Below are positions 20,846 to 32,359 of a stretch of DNA of 32,989 nucleotides, one piece after another. A program made the position numbers and the translations under genes. The DNA comes from Candidatus Stygibacter australis. GTDB taxonomy: Bacteria > Cloacimonadota > Cloacimonadia > Cloacimonadales > TCS61. Location of the stretch: contig JAVCDJ010000130.1 of assembly GCA_030765845.1 (NCBI GenBank), forward strand, positions 1 to 32,989, given 5' to 3'. Each line of letters starts with the position of its first letter. The stretch's first letter is position 1. A model generated the notes under the pieces. That model was not told where the DNA came from. It searched no databases and worked only from the letters and a program-made list of their open reading frames with translations.

Positions 20846-21617
20846 GGGTACTCCTTTTTTTTTAACCAGACGTAGGCAATCAATCTGCTCAGATCCGGTA
20901 ATTCTAAATTCTCTATTATTCCAGAACAAACTAACTGAGAATCAGCAGTATGAATTACATTCAGAAAATTAAACTTACTCTATTTTTAGTCAATTAAAAC
21001 TTAGATATAAGTTACTTAACCTAAATATTACCTCTAAAAACAAATTTTAGGAGCTAAATAGGAGCATATAGGCATAAAAGCGATATCTGGTTCAGGGAAA
21101 AGAAATATAATTATTTCGATATCAACTAAAACATAATTAATCAGTCAATACGTTATTATCATAAGAGATTTTGACAGGATTTAAGGTGGAACAACAAAGC
21201 ACATAGTGACGTTTTAATGTTAGATTGTGCTAAGTTGTTCTGGTTTAGGGGTGGGAAATAGTTGTTAAATAGTTTTATAATAAATGATTATAGGTAGAAA
21301 GTACCTGAAATTTAGGTGAAAAACGGGTTTGGGTTGAGAAATGGTGATAAATGGAGATATTTAATAATTTTTGAGTGGGAACAGTTGTATTGATTATGGT
21401 GATTGTTGAAAATGTGAAAGATGGGTGATGATGTATAAATGAGATAGCTGGATATTTGCATTGCTAACTGGTTTATTTGTTGTGATTTATAAACAACTCA
21501 CTCTGATCAACCATTGCGGAGGTTTAGCAACCATTCGCAAGGTTTTGGTTGGGAGCAAATATTAATTTAATTTGACTGATTGGCAGGCAATAATCAGACT
21601 GTTAACAGGAGAGATCA
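20846..21617 (+). other. Long AT-rich intergenic region
   Basis: About 770 bp without a supported gene. The only recognisable element is one copy of the ACCATTCGnAAGGT doublet at 21509-21544. Both flanking genes read away from it, so promoters for both should lie here, but no convincing -35/-10 pair stands out. Confidence 0.5.
21509..21544 (+). repeat. Dispersed near-palindrome doublet, copy 1
   Basis: AACCATTGCGGAGGTT (21509-21524) and AACCATTCGCAAGGTT (21529-21544): two units of a ~16-bp near-palindrome 4 nt apart. Related doublets occur at 23752 (reverse), 28627 and 32101, always intergenic. Confidence 0.7.
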
Positions 21618-23450: not shown

Positions 23451-23650
23451 TTATTCCCCGGTAGGGGATAAAGAAGCATAGACTCCGGTGAAACAAAGTG
23501 CCACCGGAGGTATAAATGTCTATTGTGACGCCCCTTCCTCATCCAGCGCTGCGCGCTGGATGAGGAAGGGGATGACGTGTTTTTTCTTTATTCCTCTGGT
23601 TGCAGAGTACTGCTACCAGAGGCTATGCATCTTAAACCCTTACCCGGGAC
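23451..23650. repeat. Composite palindromic (BIME-like) element A
   Basis: It is made of two inverted arms around a long hairpin. Left arm: small hairpin around CCCCGGTAGGGG, then GCATAG, then hairpin CTCCGGT/ACCGGAG (23483-23509). Centre: a perfect 19-bp stem (23531-23549 with 23553-23571) and a 3-nt loop. Right arm, in reverse: hairpin CCTCTGGT/ACCAGAGG (23593-23622), CTATGC, then CCCTTACCCGGG. The arms are reverse-complement homologues of each other. Element B at 28007 has the same plan. This resembles the BIMEs mobilised by RAYT (TnpA-REP) transposases; none is encoded in this window. Confidence 0.75.
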
Positions 23651-23751
23651 ATTAGAATAAAATGTGAAGTATCGTTCTATCAACAGATAACTTAGCCTAT
23701 ATAGAATTTTACAAAACAGGGGGATGCCAGTTTGAAATTGACCTGTCTAAG

Positions 23752-24007: not shown

Positions 24008-24013
24008 ATATTA

Positions 24014-24081
24014 CCTGACAATTGCTCACCGTAATGAGAATTTGTCACGATAATTGCTCAATACGGTGAGCAATTGTCAGG
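24014..24081. repeat. 20-bp perfect inverted repeat abutting a gene-tail relic
   Basis: CCTGACAATTGCTCACCGTA (24014-24033) and its exact reverse complement (24062-24081) enclose 28 nt, which contains a further AATTGCTCA. The structure begins 7 nt from the broken end of the ATPase-like tail, so it may be a small inserted element (MITE-like) or an excision scar. The remaining interval to the next gene (24082-24325) holds only small hairpins (GATCAATCT/AGATTGATC at 24194-24215; GAGTTG/CAACTC at 24101-24120). Confidence 0.7.
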
Positions 24082-24325
24082 TTTGTTAACTGTGAAAGCA
24101 GAGTTGAATTTTAACAACTCAATATACGCCTAATACGCCTTCTAAGCCTAATTTGTTCGCTACGCTCTGAAGTGAGCCGTGAACATAGTGAATGATCAAT
24201 CTGGAAAGATTGATCTACGTTTTGCCTGGCATCATATTTTAATTGTCTTGTAAGGTAATCGTTGACAATGAATTTGATTAATTCTAAGTAGATTACGTAG
24301 AGAAAAATAATACGGTGGTAAATTA

Positions 24326-25336
24326 ATGACAAAGATTTTGAATGATGTTTTGACAATTGATGCTGATACTAGGGCTGAGGTTGTAAATAAAGTTGCGGAG
24401 ATAATGCGGGATATATTTGTATTTCCGGAAAGTGGTGTGGAGATGAGTGATTTTGTTTCAAAGAAGCTTGCTGGTGGTGAATATGATGAGTTTGGTGAGA
24501 TCAAGCCATTTTGCTCCAAACTAACAGAAGATCTGCGATCAATTTGTCATGACAAGCATCTCTTTGTGTTTTACAATCCGGAAGAAGCTGTTGAAGTACG
24601 GGCAGCTAAAAACCTGCTTTCAGAAGCAGAAACTGCCAAAGTGAAAGCTATGTACAAGGTCTGGTATGAAAGGCAGAATTACGGATTCCAGAAAGTTGAG
24701 ATTTTGAAGGGTAATATAGGTTATCTTAAGCTCGATACTTTCCCGGGAATTAGGGGTGCTGATACCTGTATAAGTGCAATGGGTTTTCTGGAAAATACAA
24801 ATGCGATAATTATTGATCTGCGTGATAATGGTGGTGGAGAAGGATTTGATGGGCTACTTTCGAGTTATTTTTTTACTGCGGAAAAGGTTCTGCTGGGATC
24901 GGCAAAATATCGTGATCCTGCTCTAAACACAGAAAGCTGGACATTGCCTTATGTCCCCGGAAAGCGTCTGCCAGAGATCGATCTTTATATTCTGACAAGT
25001 TCACGGACATTTTCCGCTGCGGAAGGATTTACTTATGACCTTCAGCAATTAAAACGGGCAGTTGTGGTGGGTGAAACCACAAAAGGTGGAGCACATCCCA
25101 TTGATGTACTGATAGTTAAAGGTGATATTTTGACACAGGTTCCGATAGGTTGCTCATATAATCCGATATCTAAAAAGAACTGGGAAAAAAGCGGAGTGAT
25201 ACCGGATATTGTTACGAGTGATGATGCTGCATTGAAAACTGCTCATATTACTGCTTTGGAGAAGGTGATTGGGAAGATTGGGGATGAGGAATATAAGAAG
25301 CAACTTAGTAAGGTTTTGGAGGGTTTGAAAGTTTAA
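24326..25336 (+). CDS. S41-family peptidase, IRBP-like, without signal peptide
   Basis: 336 aa, weak GGTGG ribosome site. Residues ~1-105 match the helical N-terminal domain of the IRBP-like S41 branch (ADTRAEVVNKVAEIMRDIFV, LTEDLRSICHDKHLFVFYNP). The catalytic part has EILKGNIGYLKLDTFPG, IIDLRDNGGGEGF (~163-175), LTSSRTFSAAEGFTYDLQQL with the presumed nucleophile Ser in TFSAAE (~229), and VVVGETTKGGAH (~245). There is no PDZ domain and no signal sequence, so it is predicted cytoplasmic, unlike most tail-specific proteases. A separate diverged copy of its last ~100 codons lies at 28312-28617, starting inside the motif that follows the nucleophile. Confidence 0.85.
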   Translation: MTKILNDVLTIDADTRAEVVNKVAEIMRDIFVFPESGVEMSDFVSKKLAGGEYDEFGEIKPFCSKLTEDLRSICHDKHLFVFYNPEEAVEVRAAKNLLSEAETAKVKAMYKVWYERQNYGFQKVEILKGNIGYLKLDTFPGIRGADTCISAMGFLENTNAIIIDLRDNGGGEGFDGLLSSYFFTAEKVLLGSAKYRDPALNTESWTLPYVPGKRLPEIDLYILTSSRTFSAAEGFTYDLQQLKRAVVVGETTKGGAHPIDVLIVKGDILTQVPIGCSYNPISKKNWEKSGVIPDIVTSDDAALKTAHITALEKVIGKIGDEEYKKQLSKVLEGLKV

Positions 25337-25424: not shown

Positions 25425-27878
25425 CTATTTCATCAATATCATCTTCTTGATAGAAGAATAATTTTTTGTATCTAGTTTATAGAAATATATTCCGCTGGGA
25501 ACATCGTTGTTGTTATTATCCTTTCCATTCCAGGTCTCGGAGTAATAATCGGCATTTTTTGTTTCATTGACCAGAGTTTTTACCAATTGTCCCCTTGTGT
25601 TATATATCCTTATGCTTACTTTTCCCGGTTCATCGATAGTGTATTCGATGATCGTTGTTGGATTGAACGGATTTGGGTAATTACCTTTCAATTCAGTAAC
25701 CAGAGTCAGGGTTCCATCCTCAATTCCAGTACTCGGGGTAAGTTCAATATCGAGACCTAATGTTTCATTTGGCAATATTACAATATCTTCGGGATAAGTA
25801 TAGAACAGATAATCTTCGTGTTCACAAGTCAATTGGTATATTCCCGGAAGGATATCGAGGGAAAAATCCCCTTGAATATCTGTTATCGCCTGTAGGGTGT
25901 CTAGTGCAATTATCGCATTTTCCACGGGGATCATTGTTTCGCTATTGATCACTGTTCCCGTAAGTGTTCCGTTTAAGGGGATCAGCTCAATATCGACATT
26001 TACCGTTTCATTTGCTATGACATTGATAATTTCGGGATATGTAAAGAGTTGATAGTCTTCATGTTCACAAGTCAACTGATATTCTCCCTGAAGGATATCG
26101 AGTGAAAAGTTTCCCTGAATATCTGTCATTGCCAGATATGTACCCATGGTAATTAACGCATTTTCCACAGGTGTCATTGTCTGGCTGTCAATCACGGTTC
26201 CTGTAACAGCTCCGTTAATCGGGATCAGCTCAATTTCGAGTTCCAGTGTTTCATTTGGTAATACGATAATATCTTCGGAATATGTATAGAACAGGTAATC
26301 TTCGTGTTCACAGGTCAATTGATATTCTCCAGGAAAGATATCGATCACAAATTCTCCATGAACATCCGTTATTGCCTGGCATGTGTCCAGTGTAATTATT
26401 GCATTTTCCACAAAAGCCAATGTTTCGCTATTGATTATGGTACCTTCAACAGTTCCATTTGGAATGATCATCGGATAACCTTCTGTCCATTCCGCCCCAT
26501 TGATCAATCCTGTATGACCATTTCCAGTAAAGTCAATTGCCTCATTTCCGCTTCCAGATTCAAATCTCCATAAGGCAACTAATCCCGGTTCCACTCCAGT
26601 TAAAGGAATTGTCATATCGCCAAAAATCTCTTCCTCTGAATGAGCAACATTCCACAGGCGCACTTCATCAATGACGCCATTCCAATGCCTGTCAACATAG
26701 CTATCCCAGTGAGAGCCAATTCTTATATCTATATTTGACGGGATAATCGAGCCGTCATAAGGTGTGGAACCCTCCTCAACACCGTTTATGAAAATTCTAA
26801 TTGCTGATCCATCGAAAGTTCCTGCAACATGTGTCCATGTATCTAATGGTATTGAACCTGCTGGAGCACTTGCGCTTAGCCAGTTGTTATTTGTGCCGAT
26901 CTGGAATTGAGGAGTATTTAAATCAACATAGTTATCTATTCTCAAAATATAACCTGCTTCACTATTTGACCAATCTTCGTTTCCAATTATTGTTGGTATA
27001 TCGGTTAAAGAATTCAGCTTTACCCATGCTTCCACAGTTATTGTAGATGTGGGATTAAGAGCAGGATCAGAAGACACCACCACTTCATCATCAATTCCAT
27101 CGAAATAAAGGGCATTGTCATTCTCAGTATCGATATAGACAATTGTTACCTGGTTTGAAGATATGCTCTCAAAACCACCTTCATAGACTGCAGTAACATG
27201 ATATGAATAAATTCCGAAGGCGATGTTTTCATCAGTGAAAAATAAATCAGTAACAATATCTGCATTGATCACTTCTTCATTATTATAGACATTATAACCG
27301 ATAAGGTTAGTTTGTTCTGATGGTGGTTCCCAATCCATAATCACATCATTGTCAACCAAAACAGCCGTGAAATTAGTTGGAGGTAGATCGATAGCAGAGA
27401 TGGCAAGATTAAAGATATTCCAGAAATCATAATTGGCTGAAGATGAGCCATAACTCCGAAATCTTAATTGAACTTCTTCCCCAATATAATCCTCTATAGA
27501 AAGCGTAAGCTCTTCTCCACCTATAACACCCCAATTTCCCTGTGTCAGGTTCCAGCTCCAAATAACGTCCTCTGAACCATTATAAATAATGCTGATCTCT
27601 CCCATCTCATCAACAGCGCTGTTTTCCTGAAGATATTGAGTGACAATGCATTCAGAAACATTTTGAGGTAAAGGTATCACTGGTGAAGTTGCTGAAAGAT
27701 CGTAAGATGTAATTTCAGGTTCACCGGATAATATAAGCATATCATTTGCAATACTCCAATTATCATCAAAAGTCCAGGTTCCCGGATCAGTTTCAAAGGT
27801 TTCTGCCCAAATTATTGATTGAGAATACATAAATGAGGAAAAAAGTAGAAACAAAATCAATAACACTATATTTTTCAT
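25425..27878 (-). CDS. T9SS-secreted multidomain adhesin-like protein (LamG, three CarboxypepD-reg repeats)
   Basis: 817 aa from ATG 27878 (GGAGG 5 nt upstream). Signal peptide (MKNIVLLILFLLFSSFMYS). Order: a beta-sandwich domain (WAETFETDPGTWTFDDNW, ~25-165), a fibronectin-III-like segment (~168-250), a laminin-G/concanavalin domain (ALYFDGIDDEVVVSSDPALN, WTHVAGTFDGSAIRIFING, GVIDEVRLWNVAHS, ~252-455), three ~80-residue carboxypeptidase-regulatory-like repeats (~473-715, each containing YQLTCEHEDY), then a type A sorting domain (GNYPNPFNPTTIIEY ... GIYFYKL ... KKMILMK). Family knowledge: the C-terminal domain directs export through the Por/type IX machinery and surface attachment. LamG and CarboxypepD modules suggest glycan or matrix binding. 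Monocistronic. Confidence 0.9.
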   Translation of the reverse strand: MKNIVLLILFLLFSSFMYSQSIIWAETFETDPGTWTFDDNWSIANDMLILSGEPEITSYDLSATSPVIPLPQNVSECIVTQYLQENSAVDEMGEISIIYNGSEDVIWSWNLTQGNWGVIGGEELTLSIEDYIGEEVQLRFRSYGSSSANYDFWNIFNLAISAIDLPPTNFTAVLVDNDVIMDWEPPSEQTNLIGYNVYNNEEVINADIVTDLFFTDENIAFGIYSYHVTAVYEGGFESISSNQVTIVYIDTENDNALYFDGIDDEVVVSSDPALNPTSTITVEAWVKLNSLTDIPTIIGNEDWSNSEAGYILRIDNYVDLNTPQFQIGTNNNWLSASAPAGSIPLDTWTHVAGTFDGSAIRIFINGVEEGSTPYDGSIIPSNIDIRIGSHWDSYVDRHWNGVIDEVRLWNVAHSEEEIFGDMTIPLTGVEPGLVALWRFESGSGNEAIDFTGNGHTGLINGAEWTEGYPMIIPNGTVEGTIINSETLAFVENAIITLDTCQAITDVHGEFVIDIFPGEYQLTCEHEDYLFYTYSEDIIVLPNETLELEIELIPINGAVTGTVIDSQTMTPVENALITMGTYLAMTDIQGNFSLDILQGEYQLTCEHEDYQLFTYPEIINVIANETVNVDIELIPLNGTLTGTVINSETMIPVENAIIALDTLQAITDIQGDFSLDILPGIYQLTCEHEDYLFYTYPEDIVILPNETLGLDIELTPSTGIEDGTLTLVTELKGNYPNPFNPTTIIEYTIDEPGKVSIRIYNTRGQLVKTLVNETKNADYYSETWNGKDNNNNDVPSGIYFYKLDTKNYSSIKKMILMK
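25735..26460 (-). repeat. Three tandem ~240-bp repeats encoding CarboxypepD-reg domains
   Basis: Three consecutive ~238-243-bp units lie within the T9SS cargo gene. The segment encoding GxYQLTCEHEDYxxxTY is nearly identical in each. They reflect in-frame internal duplication and are a likely site of copy-number change. Confidence 0.8.
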
Positions 27879-28006
27879 AATGCCCTCCATATTTATATAA
27901 CTACCAGATCATAATAATGAAGCAATAATAAAAAATCAAGTCAAGAGATTTCTTCCTGATGGATAATTTGCTTGTGACGAGACTGTTCTGTCTTTGTTAT
28001 TGATTT

Positions 28007-28208
28007 ATCCCTGAAAGGGATTCACAATAATAGCCCCAGGTCGGCACGAAGTGACTACCTGGGGTTTATGATATAATAAGGCACCCCTCCCCCAAACACC
28101 GGCGTAGCCGGTGTTTGGGGGAGGGGAAGTAGTGGTGGGTATATTTTACCCCAGGTAGTTGAAATACAACAACCTGGGGCTATTATAGTTATTCCCCTGT
28201 CAGGGAAT
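28007..28208. repeat. Composite palindromic (BIME-like) element B
   Basis: Same plan as element A. Left arm: ATCCC-TGAAA-GGGAT (28007-28021), AATAATAG, hairpin CCCCAGGT/ACCTGGGG (28034-28064). Centre: a perfect 20-bp stem (28084-28103 with 28107-28126) and loop GTA. Right arm: hairpin CCCCAGGT/ACCTGGGG (28149-28179, with an inner GTTG/CAAC), CTATTAT, ATTCCC/GGGAAT (28191-28208). The right arm reversed aligns with the left arm. Directly after it is a further hairpin CTGTCAATTT/AAATTGACAG (28209-28233). Confidence 0.78.
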
Positions 28209-28311
28209 CTGTCAATTTCAGAAAAATTGACAGATATGATGCATATGTGCACTTTTATGTAGCAAAAATTGAAAACCTGCAACGATATCAATTACTTAAG
28301 TTGAACAGTCT

Positions 28312-28617
28312 CCTTGTGACCTTCAGCAATTAAAACGGGCAGTTGTGGTGGGTGAAACCACTAAAGGTGGAGCACATCCCATTGATGTACTAATTGTAAA
28401 AGGTGACATTTTAACACAGGTTCCGATTGGTTGCTCATATAATCCGATATCCAAAACGAACTGGGAAGAAACCGGAGTGATACCGCATATAGCGACTACT
28501 TCAGAGGAAGCGCTCCATACTGCACATATCACAGCATTAGAGAAAGTGAACCTTAAAACTACAGATCAGGAATATAAAGAAGAGCTGAATAAAATACTTG
28601 TGGATCTGAATAAATAA
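28312..28617 (+). pseudogene. Displaced 3' tail of the S41 peptidase gene (~100 codons)
   Basis: From TGTGACCTTCAGCAATTAAA onward this follows codons ~237-336 of the S41 gene at 24326: VVVGETTKGGAHPIDVLIVK, GDILTQVPIGCSYNPISK, then a diverging end. DNA identity is very high in the first ~130 bp and drops afterwards, while the frame stays open. The nucleophile and the rest of the catalytic core are missing. An internal ATG at 28345 could start a 90-aa frame, but there is no ribosome site. Homology begins abruptly ~80 nt after the hairpin that follows element B. Confidence 0.88.
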
Positions 28618-28626
28618 TCTGAGATC

Positions 28627-28662
28627 AACCATTTCGAAGGTGTGAACACCATCCGAAAGGTT
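28627..28662 (+). repeat. Dispersed near-palindrome doublet, copy before the first T9SS cargo paralogue
   Basis: AACCATTTCGAAGGT (28627-28641) and ACACCATCCGAAAGGTT (28646-28662), the same doublet as at 32101-32136. It sits directly after the S41 tail relic and marks the left limit of the duplicated unit. Confidence 0.75.
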
Positions 28663-28742
28663 TTAGAGGGATAAAAAACTTAATACTTGAAATCAGGGAT
28701 CAGATATTAGATTCTAATAATAATATTCATTCTAAATATTTA

Positions 28743-32011: not shown

Positions 32012-32119
32012 ATGATTGTTATTAAGGCACTTCTGCATTTCTTGTGTAATGATGGCGGTCGTTATCTGCGCCCCACCTGGCAGCAGAAATATTTTTGTTC
32101 AACCATTTCGAAGGTGTGA
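32012..32119 (+). CDS. Possible 35-aa small ORF or gene-head remnant
   Basis: ATG 32012 has an excellent AGGAG ribosome site 6 nt upstream, right after a terminator. The reading begins MIVIKALLHFLCNDGGRYLR and ends at a TGA inside the first unit of the dispersed doublet. It may be the head of a gene cut by the duplicated unit. Family unknown. Confidence 0.25.
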   Translation: MIVIKALLHFLCNDGGRYLRPTWQQKYFCSTISKV

Positions 32120-32136
32120 ACACCATTCGAAAGGTT
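32101..32136 (+). repeat. Dispersed near-palindrome doublet, copy before the second T9SS cargo paralogue
   Basis: AACCATTTCGAAGGT (32101-32115) and ACACCATTCGAAAGGTT (32120-32136). It differs from the 28627 copy by one base within the units. The distance from the doublet to the conserved 194-bp block is ~29 bp here and ~80 bp in the first copy. Confidence 0.75.
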
Positions 32137-32359
32137 TTGCGGGTGAAAAAATGTTTGACTATTTGTGGAACAAATTATGCACGTAAAACCAATGCAAAAG
32201 ACGTTAACGTAAGCCGTAATTAATATATGTGTGTAATTGTGAAGTAAAATAGACTTAAATCAGTCAGTGGGACATAAAACCGTTTACAGGATGTATTATT
32301 TGTTTACTATAATTCTACCACTGTGTCAGTCGAGAATAGAATGAATAATGGAGGATCAG

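Follow-up and report, generated by a model that had tools for sequence, protein, structure and literature searches.

Inverted doublets of repetitive extragenic palindromic (REP) sequences, known as REPINs (REP doublets forming hairpins) or bacterial interspersed mosaic elements (BIMEs), occur together with REP-associated tyrosine transposases (RAYTs) as dispersed copies with a hairpin-forming spacer, compensatory changes, a tetranucleotide at the hairpin foot, and members that flank a low-copy Y1 gene (Nunvar 2010, PMC2817692; Bertels & Rainey 2011, PMC3116915). REP dimers of the GTAG-15, GTAG-23, and CGTC-1 families lie in target palindromes (PMC3733652). For subclass 1.2 of the TnpA_Y1 (HUH) proteins, no REP was listed by Quentin et al. 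(2018), whose search used GT[AG]G feet (PMC6006769). Oriented insertion at a fixed distance, 13-17 nt upstream of sigma-A promoters, has been described for TnGBS, ISLre2, and ISKra4 (PMC3942029). Here, a contig of Candidatus Stygibacter australis (JAVCDJ010000130.1; 32,989 nt, referred to as the window) was analyzed around a 202-bp three-hairpin sequence, element B (28007-28208), and its counterpart, element A (approximately 23453-23649). B is probably a nested mobile element, in which a REPIN-like inner unit that would be read by a Y1 protein of subclass 1.2 sits inside a trans-mobilized, promoter-side miniature inverted-repeat transposable element (MITE).

The inner three-stem unit of B is nested in an outer MITE, termed type 1, at 27979-28312. 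Four near-complete relatives of B (84-86% identity) occur elsewhere in the 3.8 Mb genome, and alignment of all five B-class copies with their flanks places the terminal inverted repeat (TIR) GAGACTGTTCAA at both ends of a unit of ~330 bp, the right TIR of the copy on contig C202 being degenerate. Perfect 8-bp target duplications (CTTGTGAC, ATTCTACA, CACCTGTA, and CCTTCACA) enclose four of the five. Given these shared TIRs and target duplications, the five copies in this genome have spread as the outer unit, which has no listed 100-aa open reading frame within 27979-28312, as is typical of a MITE. Allowing one mismatch at most, the TIR 12-mer has 72 occurrences, versus 14 for its reversed control, and copies of the whole type 1 unit were found only in genomes of the same genus. 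A sequence-only reading of this DNA had delimited B as 28007-28208, which is correct for the inner unit and its described structure; the whole element is larger and is bounded by the duplication CTTGTGAC. The features concerned are as follows.

27939-27944, minus strand: TTGACT, a -35-like box of the presumed promoter of the gene at 25425-27890 (minus strand), 34 nt from the left TIR
27971-27978: left copy of the 8-bp target-site duplication CTTGTGAC, identical to 28313-28320
27979-28312: outer MITE type 1, 334 bp, with TIRs GAGACTGTTC.. and ..GTTGAACAGTCTC; same outer ends in 5 B-class copies of the genome
27979-27990, plus strand: left TIR GAGACTGTTCTG, the promoter-facing end
28007-28022: left terminal hairpin ATCCCTGAAAGGGATT; a near-identical terminal hairpin adjoins the Y1 gene on contig C216
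28023-28033, plus strand: spacer with foot/guide CACAATAATAG; an identical foot lies beside Y1 genes
28034-28064: subterminal hairpin 1, CCCCAGGT...ACCTGGGG; both-side changes in 2/8 pairs
28084-28126: central perfect palindrome, 20-bp stem and 3-nt loop GTA; both-side changes in 5/20 pairs
28149-28179: subterminal hairpin 2, CCCCAGGTAGTTG...CAACAACCTGGGG; both-side changes in 3/13 pairs
28180-28188, minus strand: foot/guide CTATAATAG, inverted relative to the left foot
28191-28208: right terminal hairpin ATTCCCCTGTCAGGGAAT; sister copies have CCCTTTCAGGG
28301-28312, minus strand: right TIR, GAGACTGTTCAA read on the minus strand
28313-28320: right copy of the 8-bp target-site duplication CTTGTGAC
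28321-28610, plus strand: truncated S41 peptidase copy, the insertion target of B, similar to 25032-25329
23453-23649: element A, three-stem like B, foot GCATAG, central palindrome 23531-23571; 57 bits with a covariance model built without A
23713-23730: AAAACAGGGGGATGCCAG, right TIR of the outer MITE type 2 that hosts A; the left outer end of A is degraded

A and B belong to one family of small three-hairpin mobile DNA. Their local alignment spans both from end to end with a score of 40, which was reached by none of 1000 shuffles (mean 11.5, maximum 23), and both fold far below shuffled sequences (z-scores -6.6 for A and -5.7 for B). In each, the order is terminal hairpin, spacer ending in ATAG, hairpin 1, long central palindrome, hairpin 2, mirrored spacer, and terminal hairpin; ATAG precedes the subterminal hairpin, and the central stem opens with CCCCTYCC, an octamer found five times in the window against 1.0 expected. 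The likeness, order, and shared bases reported in the earlier reading thus survive proper alignment. The inner unit of B is a REPIN-like doublet, i.e., an inverted hairpin pair with a conserved tetranucleotide foot, ATAG rather than GTAG, and it shares with REPINs and BIMEs the traits listed above. It differs from them in its foot (ATAG, also ATAA and GTAG), in the second, terminal palindrome of each half-unit, in a spacer that is itself a perfect palindrome of 20 bp or more, and in the subclass of the Y1 protein. As with GTAG-15, GTAG-23, and CGTC-1 dimers, palindromic sequence borders the doublet; however, those dimers split one palindrome, whereas the present unit has an intact palindrome on either side and lies in an element with TIRs (PMC3733652).

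A second outer element, type 2, hosts element A and the majority of the other three-stem units; its TIR is CTGGCATCCCCCCG, and its target duplications measure 12-15 bp where these are clean, a variable length that is unusual for a MITE (L316, L319, L321, L325, and L326). The hosts of A and B are therefore two different outer MITE types, both of which had gone unnoticed in the earlier reading. An alternative explanation is that the three-stem unit is structural cargo of DDE-type MITEs, with the likeness to Y1 flanks reflecting an old capture and no Y1 protein moving it today. The location of the five B-class copies and most other three-stem copies inside either of the two outer types, together with target duplications that belong to the outer units, speaks for such cargo. 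The unit is, however, shared by two outer elements whose TIRs are unrelated and whose duplications differ in length, it also adjoins both Y1 genes of subclass 1.2 in this genome, and its foot and terminal hairpin agree with those next to the C216 Y1 gene, so that simple cargo appears rather unlikely. Since a second MITE type also hosts it and further copies immediately adjoin Y1 genes, the inner unit is a module of its own.

The genome contains five Y1_Tnp genes, two of which (on contigs C216 and C170) encode proteins of ~150 aa with the Y...Q..HH signature of subclass 1.2. Residues Y114, Q118, H121, H122, H54, H56, and W94 are invariant in 24 Y1 proteins, accounting for the DHxH, WQ, and Y...Q..HH motifs; the published subclass is likewise described by 148 aa, DH[LVI]H, WQ, Y...Q..HH, and low copy number (PMC6006769). 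On either side of the C216 gene, in inverted orientation, stands terminal hairpin-TNACTATAATAG-hairpin, the same ends as in B; this border unit reads CTGAAAGGG-spacer-ACTATAATAG-hairpin. The gene on C170 has full three-stem elements of the A/B type on both sides, plus one version without the long palindrome. Thus, an inverted doublet that is dispersed in many copies in the genome flanks a low-copy Y1 gene, as in REPIN systems. The C216 protein scores 32 bits against REP_Tyr_transpos (class 2 RAYT), below the cut-off of 80, and because its partner is not a REP_Tyr_transpos protein, the inner unit is filed as REPIN-like rather than as a classical REPIN. Three more Y1 genes, of other subclasses (L016 on C93, L017 on C133, and L018 on C243), each lie in their own distinct palindromic-repeat array.

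The name that NCBIfam gives to the C216 protein, IS200/IS605 transposase (64.6 bits, cut-off 55), and the ISHp608 and related TnpA proteins that are its nearest solved structures would be consistent with a classical IS200/IS605 derivative (a palindrome-associated transposable element, PATE) formed by internal deletion of an autonomous insertion sequence. Such an origin is improbable: IS200/IS605 elements are autonomous, with subterminal hairpins in the same orientation and no TIRs, whereas here REP-like ends in inverted orientation lie on both sides of a low-copy Y1 gene, and the Y...Q..HH signature is that of subclass 1.2, not 1.1.

The association extends beyond this genome. Of 118 related genomes, 66 encode relatives of the C216 protein, the one in G001 being 60% identical; among named records, relatives occur in Bacteroidota, Verrucomicrobiota, Planctomycetota, Calditrichota, Neomarinimicrobiota, and others. 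Across 96 Y1 loci, the median inverted similarity of the two flanks was 23.8 versus 12.5 in controls, hairpins were enriched in the flanks (1.20 versus 0.33 per 500 bp, p = 6e-8), and ATAG was the most frequent tetranucleotide at the hairpin foot. Units composed of a terminal hairpin, 7-16 nt, and a hairpin were found in 100 of 191 Y1 flanks (52%), compared with 20 of 115 distal stretches (17%); examples are gatccccgcaggggatc-AACATGAGTAG-ccgcaggtgaaacctgcgg in a member of the Verrucomicrobia (L153) and aaccccgtaggggtt-CCCCATGAATAG-ccaggggtcgcatgccccctgg at L174. Half-units of the form CTGAARGG-N8-14-ATAGC number 21, 23, 14, and 45 in genomes G000, G001, G002, and G015, respectively, with 0, 0, 0, and 3 for the reversed controls. 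The wide flanking of these Y1 genes by REP-like doublets sets them apart from published subclass 1.2, for which an absence of REPs nearby is a reported trait (PMC6006769); the conflict is with the published description and not with the sequence signature.

A covariance model, R1, built from eleven other three-stem elements and from neither A nor B, recovered A and B (E ~1e-10 and 1e-18) along with about 20 other sites in the genome, giving 93.9 bits to B, 57 to A, 64 to the C170 element, and 46 and 40 to the two C216 flanks. Paired changes were counted in 10 of 41 pairs among nine B-class copies and in 13 of 43 pairs among eleven related elements, neither figure being reached in 500 shuffles, and sliding the partner by 1-3 columns reduced both-side pairs to 0-4. 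The expectations of the sequence-only reading that further copies would covary and that a model search would retrieve more of them were thus borne out, here with a model that excluded the two founding elements.

Of the two interpretations that this reading had offered for the paired changes, RAYT-mobilized DNA or a structured RNA, RAYT-type mobilized DNA is the best match, since Y1 (HUH) genes, both here and in other genomes, are flanked by this architecture, and the RNA was rejected. Selection on pairing in a regulatory leader, terminator, or small RNA would account for the strong covariation and for folding energies far below those of shuffles. Nevertheless, Rfam gave no match at the gathering threshold at this place, the two strands score almost alike with R1 (93.9 versus 85.5 bits), the feet are symmetric on both strands, and the target duplications reveal DNA insertion. 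In the eleven-element set, 27 both-side cells stand against ~6 one-sided ones, with G-U intermediates rare. Because both-side cells so outnumber one-sided cells and G-U intermediates are few, the conserved structure looks more like DNA hairpins or concerted palindrome correction than RNA, and an RNA origin is very improbable.

Long perfect palindromes are known substrates of quasipalindrome correction. A by-product of such correction, i.e., template switching during replication, is a plausible though not favored source of the paired changes, with the unit still being mobile DNA. It would account for the predominance of concerted C-G to T-A swaps and the scarcity of one-sided intermediates in the eleven-element set. 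It sits less well with the covariation of the short, looped subterminal hairpins (2/7, 2/8, 2/8, and 3/13 pairs) and with the feet and terminal hairpins, which the Y1 protein would read, being the most conserved parts.

The outer MITEs are placed at a narrow distance from promoter-like boxes, as determined for loci from G000, G001, G002, G015, and G040 together with window positions 27939-27979. Among the 38 type 1 ends with a TTGAC[AT] box no more than 80 nt away, 32 have it at a distance of 32-35 nt, 20 of these at exactly 33 nt, against a background of 0.4% for the 32-35 window. The box faces the hairpin-side end in 14 of 18 cases and the right end in 2 of 26, and a strict one-end orientation was softened on account of those two. 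For type 2, 28 of 33 ends of one kind have the box at 15-24 nt, compared with 1 of 34 of the other. The pooled sites have no clear -10 element, so that the TTGAC[AT] boxes are likely rather than proven promoters. Oriented, fixed-distance insertion upstream of a -35-like box, as in promoter-targeting p-MULT transposons, is what these elements display, and short target duplications are a further likeness to the Mutator-type, promoter-targeting TnGBS, ISLre2, and ISKra4 (PMC3942029). In contrast to those elements, the distance is 32-35 nt (type 1) or 15-24 nt (type 2) rather than 13-17 nt, the lineage is another one, the units are MITEs without a known transposase, and type 2 duplications measure 12-15 bp where clean. 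On the promoter side of B, an 821-aa gene contains three tandem 243-bp repeats (window 25706-26460), and Pfam marks three carboxypeptidase-regulatory-like stretches in the protein.

Rejoined at the duplication, the two flanks of B give a sequence that aligns without a break to the intact S41 gene across the insertion site, indicating that B entered an S41 copy that had already been truncated and that its tail was neither carried nor displaced by B. The role in displacing the S41 tail that the earlier reading had hinted at is therefore not supported for B. Beside the truncated S41 copy, a gene block is tandemly duplicated with a period of ~3.4 kb (28737-29036/32160-32459 and 29271-29568/32691-32988). 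Short repeats TCAACCATTTCGAAGG... at window positions 21507-21559, 28625-28677, and 32099-32151 resemble pieces of longer elements related to outer type 1 (cf. L011, L031, and L035). Between A and the S41 gene lies a separate large palindrome, a near-perfect 34-bp inverted repeat with a 2-nt gap (24013-24082), and GATCAATCTGGAAAGATTGATCTACG (24190-24216) is similar to the GTAG-footed repeats that surround the C93 Y1 gene. The outer copy on C7 has other cargo between its two terminal hairpins; ..GACATTTACGGGTCCATC.. is located between outer-unit terminal hairpins there (L146, C7:1714-2178) and also in a REPIN of another genome (L307, G002:C228), and the sequence bearing it is possibly a further element using these palindromes as its target. 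A plasmid origin was also considered and gave no match.

Building on the nesting, outer target duplications, subclass 1.2 association, covariation, and placement demonstrated here, a mechanism can be proposed. The inner 202 bp would be non-autonomous and consist of two inverted REP half-units, each made up of a terminal palindrome, ~11 nt ending in ATAG, and a hairpin, with the long perfect palindrome between them. Exposed as a single strand in the lagging-strand template, a half-unit would be read by the subclass 1.2 TnpA_Y1 (HUH) protein, which, by analogy with the biochemistry of TnpA_REP and IS608 (PMC8266576), would bind the hairpin, take ATAG as its guide, and cut at CT within or near the terminal palindrome. 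The outer 334 bp would be inserted by a DDE transposase acting in trans, generating 8-bp duplications at a distance of ~33 nt from a TTGACA box, usually with one particular end turned toward the box. The single-hairpin copies on C66 and C40 carry the joint ATCCC-TTTCAGGGAA, which would agree with a junction formed at CCC^T of the two terminal hairpins; slippage or an ancestral empty site would leave an identical sequence.

Several observations weigh against this interpretation. No solo movement of the inner unit was seen, all complete B-class copies being inside the outer MITE, and the outer copies with a single terminal hairpin (C30, C66, and C40) could represent empty sites, products of excision, or deletions by slippage. 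A clear REP unit is missing from about half of the Y1 flanks, and no Y1 gene with the GCATAG foot of A was seen. Quasipalindrome correction can yield paired changes without selection on structure. On the side of the outer MITE, no autonomous relative with type 1 TIRs was found among TIR pairs up to 2.6 kb in this incomplete genome, the ends of the single IS256-type (PF00872) gene differ, and the search for UPF0236/ISLre2 gave no match, with controls equally silent and the result hence uninformative.

What is new is the occurrence of REPIN-like units for a Y1 subclass reported to be without them, with an extra palindrome in each half-unit and riding in box-placed MITEs. It is conceivable, as a tentative extension, that the subclass 1.2 HUH proteins represent a large unrecognized REPIN system with two-hairpin half-units and an ATAG guide in several phyla, whose REPINs here ride promoter-targeting MITEs. 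A widespread HUH class described as lacking a DNA substrate would thereby gain a plausible one, in a two-hairpin architecture that is directly testable in vitro. In C. Stygibacter australis, REPIN-like elements hitch-hike in MITEs whose insertion keeps a narrow distance from a -35-like box (TTGACA), raising the questions of how the transposase recognizes the promoter and whether the delivered palindrome changes gene expression. If the tentative extension is true, two unrelated transposition systems would jointly set long palindromes at a fixed distance before promoters.
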